A DNA stretch of 64,000 nucleotides, from positions 1 to 64,000 of the forward strand of contig DUMA01000024.1 of the NCBI GenBank assembly GCA_012840135.1, read 5' to 3'. Under the pieces are notes generated by a model, which was not told the DNA's origin, searched no databases, and saw nothing but the letters and a program-made list of their open reading frames with translations. Each line of letters opens with the position of its first letter. Within the stretch, counting starts at the first letter, position 1. The position numbers were made by a program, and so were the translations under genes. This stretch comes from Thermoanaerobacterales bacterium. Lineage in GTDB: Bacteria; Bacillota; Thermosediminibacteria; Thermosediminibacterales; Tepidanaerobacteraceae. Below, in pieces: positions 15,518 through 19,294 of this stretch.

Positions 15518-16174
15518 TCATCTGCACTCAAGAATACGAAGCATTTCCTCGGCCGGGTCAATAATAGGAAACCCTACTTTTTGCTGAAGTTTTTCCTTAA
15601 GGTACGGAAGGTGAGTGCAGCCCAGCACCAGACAATCGGCTTTCCATTGTGTAGAAATAAGACCTATCAGATTGAACCTTTCGATGATAACCTCCGGATG
15701 CTGTCCAGCTTCAATGGCTTTAATTACCGGAAGCATTGAAATTCCGGTTATCTCAATAGAGGGATTATTTTCATAAAAAATTTTTTCGATGCCTGACAGG
15801 CACTGTCCATTGGCGGCCCATAGCATGATCTTATTAAATCGTAAAGCGAGGCTTCCGTATATGTCCAAAGGAGTTACCACCTGACTCTGGAAACAGGACT
15901 TTTTTATAGAATCAATATCTATGGCCGAAGAAAGGGAATTGCAATAGATCATGGTCTTGAATATAAAATTTTGCTCGAAGCTTAGGATTATATTCTTAAC
16001 TTTTTCAGTAAGGGCTGCTGGGTTCAAAAACTGCAGCAGATTTTGTTCCTCCGGACCGGAAGCAGTGGGAACGCCGACCGCTTCATAACCTTTCCCGGTC
16101 ACGAAATCCACTCCCATCTGAGTATCCACAGGCGTGCCTGCGATGACACCGATCTTTTGCTTTTTTTGATTCAA
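15518..16174 (-). CDS. Aspartate/glutamate racemase-family protein
   Basis: A 218-residue protein from TTG 16174, behind AAAGGTGATG. Two catalytic cysteines are visible: IYCNSLS near residue 80 and LGCTHLP near residue 185, the two-Cys arrangement of cofactor-independent Asp/Glu/hydantoin racemases. The N-terminal IGVIAGTPVDTQMG is the usual family opening. Substrate cannot be fixed; it is not MurI-like enough to name. It follows the metNIQ operon after a strong terminator and converges with the PDZ-protein gene. Confidence 0.75.
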   Translation of the reverse strand: MNQKKQKIGVIAGTPVDTQMGVDFVTGKGYEAVGVPTASGPEEQNLLQFLNPAALTEKVKNIILSFEQNFIFKTMIYCNSLSSAIDIDSIKKSCFQSQVVTPLDIYGSLALRFNKIMLWAANGQCLSGIEKIFYENNPSIEITGISMLPVIKAIEAGQHPEVIIERFNLIGLISTQWKADCLVLGCTHLPYLKEKLQQKVGFPIIDPAEEMLRILECR

Positions 16175-17117: not shown

Positions 17118-17164
17118 TTTTACATCTCCTTTACATTTTGATTGAAATAGTGTTAGAAAACCAT

Positions 17165-17408
17165 TTTCCTGCCGGAGATGACCCGGCACCTCCGCTCATC
17201 CTGCTGCTCTAGAGTTTAGTCCTGCGCTTCGTGGAGGTTCGCCAGCAATTCGGCGTCCTGCCTCAATGTCGGCCAGTGGGCATCCATGCCCGCTGCCTCC
17301 ACCGGGTACCCACCGAAGGTGGGTGTTGTTCTAAACTCAAGAGCGGCAACGGCTTCGCTAAACGGTGCAATTGGACATCTCCGGCAGCGGATTTAGTTTC
17401 TTGCACCG
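17165..17408 (-). ncRNA. Compact structured RNA element between metI and metQ (HEARO/omega-RNA-like candidate)
   Basis: The minus-strand transcript can form a nested fold: P1 is a perfect 12-bp pairing (17169-17180 with 17376-17387), P2 pairs GAGTTTAG 17212-17219 with 17331-17338, P3 pairs 17231-17237 with 17296-17302, and hairpins lie at 17278-17291 and 17308-17324 (ACCCACC-GAA-GGTGGGT). CGGTGCAA 17363-17370 can pair with 17401-17408 across P1, giving a pseudoknot. The region is GC-richer than its flanks and has no convincing ORF. Size, pseudoknot and wording resemble HEARO RNAs (the omega-RNAs of IscB/IsrB nucleases), but that family call is from memory and untested. Confidence 0.6.
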
Positions 17409-17430
17409 GAGTCAAACTTTTCAATGTAAA

Positions 17431-18084
17431 TCAGCGGTTTCTGGAAAACTGTCTTACTGCAAAATCACCCAGCATCTGGGTTAGCTGTACCATGACTACA
17501 AGTATTATTACGGTATACAGCATGATATCCGGCATGAAACGCTGGTAACCGTATCTCACCGCCAGGTCTCCTAGACCACCTCCTCCTATGACGCCTGCCA
17601 TGGTGGAATATCCTACCAGGTTGATGGTGGTTATGGTGATTCCCGAAACAATGGATGGCAGTGCCTCCGGGACGAGTACCTTCGTAATTATTTGAAAGGG
17701 AGAAGCCCCCATGGCCTGAGCCGCTTCGATGATTCCCCTGCCGACCTCCCGCAGGGAGGTCTCCGTAAGCCGGCCCATAAAAGGTATGGCGGCTATGGAC
17801 AGGGGAACTATGGCGGCTGTAGTTCCGATGGAAGTCCCCACTAAAAATCTAGTAAAAGGAATTAGCGCAATGAGAAGAATTATAAATGGCACTGACCGGA
17901 ATATATTTACTATTGTTCCCAGCACCTTGTTCAATGGTCCGTTTTGCAGTATATGCCCTTTATCCGTGATAAGCAGCAGTATGCCGAGAGGTATACCGAA
18001 AGCTGTGGCGATAAATACCGATATCAGCACCATGTAAATGGTCTGCCATGATGATAAGAGAAGGAGACTTATGGTTTCAGACAT
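17431..18084 (-). CDS. metI: Methionine ABC transporter permease
   Basis: A 217-residue membrane protein with five or six hydrophobic segments and the permease loop RFLVGTSIGTTAAIVPL / EAAQAMGASPFQI, the EAA-type contact with the ATPase. It overlaps the end of metN by 8 bp. It forms the channel of the MetNIQ importer. Confidence 0.93.
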   Translation of the reverse strand: MSETISLLLLSSWQTIYMVLISVFIATAFGIPLGILLLITDKGHILQNGPLNKVLGTIVNIFRSVPFIILLIALIPFTRFLVGTSIGTTAAIVPLSIAAIPFMGRLTETSLREVGRGIIEAAQAMGASPFQIITKVLVPEALPSIVSGITITTINLVGYSTMAGVIGGGGLGDLAVRYGYQRFMPDIMLYTVIILVVMVQLTQMLGDFAVRQFSRNR

Positions 18085-19138: not shown

Positions 19139-19294
19139 AAAAAACCCCTTCTGACGACAAGAAGAGGAATCGCAAACCCTCTCATCTGTCAGAACATACA
19201 GTTCTGCAGGAATTAGCACCGATGCAGCGGGAAATTTTTGCTGCCGGTTGCCGGGCGTCATTGGGCCAGTCCCTCAGCCTGCTCTCGATAAGAG
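19139..19294 (-). promoter_or_regulatory. SAM-I (S-box) riboswitch with terminator
   Basis: Read on the minus strand, the leader has the S-box landmarks in order: CTTATCGAGAG, GCTGAGGGACTGGCCC, ATGACGCCCGGCAACC, and GGTGCTAATTCC, then a final stem whose 3' part can form an alternative terminator (CCTCTTCT with AGAAGGGG, then T6). Binding of S-adenosylmethionine favours termination. It controls metNIQ. Confidence 0.95.

Follow-up and report, generated by a model that had tools for sequence, protein, structure and literature searches.

The metI-metQ locus

The window, that is, the whole 64-kb stretch of DNA analysed, carries a metNIQ operon on its minus strand, and a compact structured feature lies between metI and metQ (Table 1). 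The RNA sense of the feature is that of the metNIQ mRNA. A SAM riboswitch (RF00162, 87 bits, 19179-19294, minus strand) is found upstream of metN and is the expected regulator of the operon. Downstream of metQ, the ORF at 15518-16174 (minus strand) appears by eye to be of the Asp/Glu racemase type; similar racemase-type sequence adjoins metQ in genomes G007 (L220) and G008 (L222). To our knowledge, adjacency of a racemase-type gene and metQ is not a recognised association.

Table 1. Coordinates of the genes, the element and its structural parts in the window
Feature	Position	Strand	Description or basis
metI	17431-18084	-	
metQ	start codon 17117	-	
Whole element, MITE-like	17140-17413	-	about 274 bp; own-genome copies, end alignment to other terminal inverted repeats (TIRs), empty gaps in relatives
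5' terminal inverted repeat	17398-17413	-	GACTCCGGTGCAAGAA; family consensus GATTCCGGTGTARAAA
Other terminal repeat, degenerate	17140-17160	+	GATTGAAATAGTGTTAGAAAA; putative, diverged; compared with ends of L002, L005, L006
Outer stem, arm 1	17169-17180		CTGCCGGAGATG; 12 bp perfect with 17377-17388
Outer stem, arm 2	17377-17388		CATCTCCGGCAG; partner of 17169-17180
Conserved core	17196-17348	-	covariance model R1, 132 bits
Basal core stem, first arm	17202-17219		pairs with 17331-17348, 89% complementary; covariation in helices 1-2
Basal core stem, second arm	17331-17348		partner of 17202-17219
Closing helix, first arm	17231-17237		GTGGAGG; pairs with CCTCCAC; fold, helix 5 covariation
Closing helix, second arm	17296-17302		CCTCCAC; fold, helix 5 covariation
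Hairpin A	17275-17295	-	loop AUGGAU (an AYGGAY loop); GGA at 17285-17283
Hairpin B	17241-17273	-	loop CAGGAC, with conserved GCCGAAUU; GGA at 17258-17256
Extra CCCACCTTCGGTGGG hairpin	17308-17323	-	present in some copies and not in others (seen in the window copy, L002 and L137), alignment A1
Crossing pairing, side one	17363-17370		CGGTGCAA; not conserved among copies
Crossing pairing, other side	17401-17408		TTGCACCG

The feature that separates metI from metQ is a genuine RNA-like structure. The feature folds better than 200 of 200 dinucleotide shuffles on both the plus strand (z = -6.0) and the minus strand (z = -4.4), and the minus strand of the whole element reaches z = -5.9. A first-pass annotation, made from the DNA letters, had described a GC-rich block with a perfect 12-bp outer stem, a nested stem and tight hairpins, and all of these are present in the window copy. 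Its limits of 17165-17408 fall inside the element and clip it at both ends. It had also reported no ORF; two ORFs of the program-made list do overlap the element, and neither looks coding.

The 8-bp pairing that had been read as crossing the outer stem exists in the window copy, where one arm of an internal stem is joined by it to the element's terminal repeat, but it is not conserved. The exact pairing is absent from all other copies in which both segments are readable; in L290 these segments match through another 8-mer, and the remaining readable copies pair less well. In the minus-strand fold the crossing pairing competes with a conserved GCACC/GGTGC stem, which it would displace. Given this displacement and the absence from other copies, the pseudoknot is probably incidental, and it was rejected as a feature of the family.

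A dispersed element with an empty site in relatives

The feature belongs to a family of non-autonomous, MITE-like transposable elements that are short and non-coding. BLAST revealed it to be a dispersed repeat in the host genome, with 12 places matched by one query and 34 when a divergent copy served as query; there are at least 10 intact cores and some 30 element places. DNA related to the element occurs in 17 of 101 relatives, in some only as short matches. In G001, a genome of the same genus whose MetQ is 94% identical, metI and metQ are separated by a short gap with no element in it, and the gap is also empty in G004, G003 and Tepidanaerobacter sp. GT38, all of the same family. The simplest reading of these empty gaps is that the window copy is a lineage-specific insertion. 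The suggestion that a structured, multi-copy element had landed in the metNIQ operon is thus borne out by its dispersed copies and empty sites.

The same annotation had offered, as its second option, a new regulatory RNA acting between two transporter genes. This did not hold up, since the same element adjoins unrelated genes in both orientations and is therefore not a metNIQ-specific regulator. Among copies in tandem-gene contexts 12 are sense and 14 antisense (n=30), so that half of the copies would not be transcribed as the GGA-bearing strand. Many copies are decayed or truncated, and one retained orthologous copy carries stem-breaking changes (L006 versus L287). A domesticated cis-regulatory RNA controlling metQ within the operon is accordingly considered very unlikely. 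The sense orientation of the window copy, its position after metI and ahead of the metQ ribosome-binding site, its very stable fold and the Rfam typing of the related family RF01731 (see below) as Cis-reg speak for such a regulator. Against it stand the lack of the element at metI-metQ in all relatives checked, the copies beside unrelated genes in both orientations, and the SAM riboswitch that the operon already possesses. As a metNIQ-specific riboregulator the element was rejected on the empty site and the unrelated neighbours.

Element ends and the IS1182-like transposase

Comparison of copies shows that they end in GATTCCGGTGTARAAA-type repeats in inverted orientation; those of the window copy are degenerate, and no clear target duplication was found at its flanks. 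The TIR motif occurs at 27 sites in the host genome (G000) at up to one mismatch, and at up to two mismatches at 98 sites versus 51 for a reversed control. Ends matching those of the element copies belong to a transposase-encoding IS1182-like element of the host (G000:C5:5006-7011), which is flanked by 9-bp repeats. Its transposase has DUF772 and DDE_Tnp_1_6 domains and is split into two ORFs (L209 2670-4319, G000:C5). Decayed IS1182-like pieces are present at G000:C18:346288-346954 and in G004:C35.

The core is not confined to these ends. In G207, elements of about 263 bp carry the same core between different ends (CTGAGTTATCCCCA...TGGGGATACGCCAG); the 9-bp target duplication is perfect in nine of them and agrees at 8/9 positions in three others. 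Other ends surround the core in G036/G120/G153 (GGCTCNGGAAATGACCG) and in G246 (CAGGTGGCTTTTGCC). From these different ends in G000, G207, G036/G120/G153 and G246 it follows that the core travels with several end types. No full autonomous partner of the G207 elements was found among the TIR sites examined. Loci L314-L337 of G207 include at least 20 elements with the ends CTGAGTTATCCCC, which we take to resemble those of the IS10/IS4 group, and several near-identical copies in that genome suggest recent movement. Elements that have both terminal repeats and lack the core were also seen, namely L211 (G000:C38:64537-64606, 70 bp), L214 (G000:C8:32452-32525) and L325 (110 bp); these elements of 70-110 bp are either mobile minis or internal deletions.

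The element is like ordinary MITEs and other non-autonomous IS derivatives in being short and without an ORF, in sharing TIRs with a resident IS (IS1182-like in the host), and in its many copies, with clear target duplications in the G207 elements. It is unlike them in having a conserved, covarying RNA-like core that is found across several unrelated end types.

The first-pass annotation had compared the feature with HEARO/omega-RNA, the guide RNA of IscB/IsrB nucleases, while pointing out that no nuclease gene lies beside it, which is correct. A HEARO/omega-RNA or other guide that has lost its nuclease is highly improbable. The element shares with HEARO/omega-RNA a compact, structured and mobile nature, HEARO RNAs are sometimes orphans, and the 8-bp crossing pairing of the window copy would fit. 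The comparison failed in Infernal/Rfam searches, as neither HEARO (RF02033) nor IS605-orfB matched the window at E<=5 or the homologues at looser thresholds, and HEARO/omega-RNA was rejected for want of a covariance-model match in either. The element also differs in lacking a conserved pseudoknot and a nuclease gene beside it, and in ending in TIRs with, where clear, 9-bp target duplications. HEARO and IS605 elements are not known to have such ends. The IscB RRXRR domain (PF14239) has no match in the host genome, a weak result as the control also matched in no genome.

A conserved and covarying core

The conserved cargo of the element is a structured core of about 150 nt on the window minus strand, related to TwoAYGGAY and containing two GGA-loop hairpins. 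Nineteen diverse cores, taken in the minus-strand sense, were aligned with MAFFT (alignment A1), and covariance model R1 was built from this alignment; the window copy is the only R1 match (132 bits) within the 64-kb window. Two-sided changes occur in 22 of the 31 predicted pairs of A1. In alignment A2, whose 87 sequences were fitted to R1 and which thus leans towards the model, 29 of 31 pairs have two-sided changes and 91% of cells pair. Two-sided cells in A2 number 658 versus 179 when shuffled and 84-130 for slid structures, and its covariation score was reached by none of 500 shuffles. Covariation across the 87 sequences is thus strong. Of the 249 relatives searched with R1, 48 carry the core, in many cases with at least about 13 matches per genome.

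The loops are more constant than the stems. GGA is kept in the loop of hairpin A in approximately 81-85 of 87 copies while its stem covaries, in that of hairpin B in approximately 80-86 of 87, and both loops keep it in approximately 93% of the 87 copies or more. As an independent test of covariation, the outer stem of hairpin B gives moderate support, with 68.7% of cells paired and 44 two-sided cells versus 23 when shuffled, and misalignment is part of the cause. Comparison of G-U with A-C mismatches gives a weak strand signal (84 against 49 in total, 15 against 14 for A1), which is reversed in the outer hairpin-B helix. No sigma-70-like promoter was found inside the element by consensus scan, and no terminator within the window copy.

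The extra CCCACCTTCGGTGGG hairpin insert is also present in L127, L129, L133, L134, L144 and L146. Near-identical stretches of 23-28 nt occur in the genomes of other families, and this hairpin may be a tiny dispersed repeat of its own.

Relation to TwoAYGGAY

Compared with 4227 Rfam families, the window copy gives no significant match; the best is TwoAYGGAY (RF01731) at 19.9 bits, E 1.9, far below the gathering cut-off of 43 bits. Homologues in other clostridia, found by DNA similarity or via R1, score 65.5, 59.9, 53.1, 43.4 and 43.1 bits against the full 168-position RF01731 model, and R1 unites these with the window copy. The relationship claimed is therefore one of superfamily by intermediates, and not of Rfam membership. 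The core resembles TwoAYGGAY, a member of clan CL00106 (Csr-Rsm protein binding), in its two adjacent GGA-loop hairpins (AUGGAU and CAGGAC in the window copy), long closing stem, covarying structure and equal core length, with alignment over the full model. It is unlike TwoAYGGAY in that loop B is usually CAGGAY instead of AYGGAY, and in that it sits within a transposable element bearing TIRs.

The RNA class and the prediction of CsrA binding are already known. Weinberg et al. (PMC2864571) list TwoAYGGAY as a probable RNA that is probably not a cis-regulator. On the strength of its paired GGA hairpins, Gardner and Eldai suggested in 2014 that it acts in Clostridia by sequestering CsrA, a proposal that they labelled unvalidated (PMC4333381). 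Among open-access papers, none was found that connects MITEs in bacteria to either TwoAYGGAY or CsrA. Packaging of the class in a multi-copy transposable element with several end types thus appears to be new among open-access papers, and a near-constant presence of csrA in carriers was not found described in those that are searchable.

Association with csrA

The core has the paired A(N)GGA hairpin loops of the Csr-Rsm clan, and the host encodes CsrA (G000:C19:41710-41865, 81 bits). Among near-complete genomes (at least 90% complete, at most 5% contaminated) csrA is present in 39 of 39 that carry the core (in G026 weakly) and in 126 of 179 without it. The association gives a Fisher p of 7e-6, ignoring phylogeny; p is 1e-4 with the weak G026 counted as absent and also 1e-4 at genus level. 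The core occurs without csrA in three genomes, whose completeness is 68-84%. The co-occurrence of core and csrA, calculated without regard to phylogeny, supports the CsrA reading.

Like CsrB/CsrC and RsmX/Y/Z, the core has paired GGA-loop hairpins that would suit a CsrA dimer. Those RNAs are promoter-driven, belong to Gammaproteobacteria and carry many sites each, whereas each copy of the element core has two sites, the copies in a genome are many, the hosts are clostridial, no promoter of its own was found, and its CsrA binding is a prediction.

Interpretation

The favoured explanation, with moderate confidence, is that the feature is an element of MITE type with a TwoAYGGAY-type RNA as its cargo, that this RNA probably binds CsrA, and that the element was moved in trans by an IS1182-like transposase and is selected at the level of the family. 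An IS1182-like transposase of the host lineage would have recognised the common ends, and insertion between metI and metQ would have come after this lineage diverged from the closest species with a sequenced genome. In transcripts from the metNIQ promoter the core would lie within the operon mRNA, where its two GGA-loop hairpins, spaced by about 28 nt, may have a geometry suited to a CsrA dimer. This paired geometry points to CsrA binding as the likely activity, with copies in bulk perhaps sequestering the protein. The metNIQ mRNA could thereby become a CsrA target or a small sponge, and translation of metQ or the stability of the mRNA might be affected locally. Single copies seem to be decaying, so that the element family, and not a metNIQ-specific switch, is probably what selection acts on; the nearly equal orientations and the stem-breaking changes in the retained orthologous copy make selection on the element lineage seem the case.

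The conservation of base pairs could instead reflect DNA fold-back, and this is the main rival. On this view structure and loops serve the DNA element alone, for example in transposase recognition or as a cruciform, and TwoAYGGAY, a mobile repeat, has been mistaken for an RNA and does not function as one. It would account for the absence of orientation bias, the lack of a promoter in the consensus scan, the many decayed or truncated copies, the broken stems of L006 versus L287 and the weak G-U/A-C asymmetry. A role in transposase recognition does not predict a core kept across unrelated ends (G000, G036, G207, G246), and the near-invariance of GGA in the loops, beyond the stems, and the co-occurrence of csrA with the core also argue against it. 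So do short copies with ends and no core (C38, 70 bp; L325, 110 bp), though these may be later internal deletions. The DNA-only reading is regarded as rather unlikely.

A wider generalisation of the CsrA-binding element is put forward only tentatively. TwoAYGGAY-type RNAs may be MITE cargo across Clostridia, a mobile CsrA-binding module that is swapped between transposase systems and through which many transcripts would acquire CsrA sites and the host Csr system would be tuned or titrated.

TwoAYGGAY dates from 2010, and CsrA binding was predicted for it in 2014. Carriage in many transposable copies with different ends, together with near-constant csrA, makes the question of CsrA binding directly testable. 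It makes a second one testable as well, namely whether a selfish element is exploiting or rewiring a global regulator. What is annotated as a TwoAYGGAY "RNA" may be a copy of a transposon, and mobile elements could spread protein-binding RNA sites through bacterial operons.
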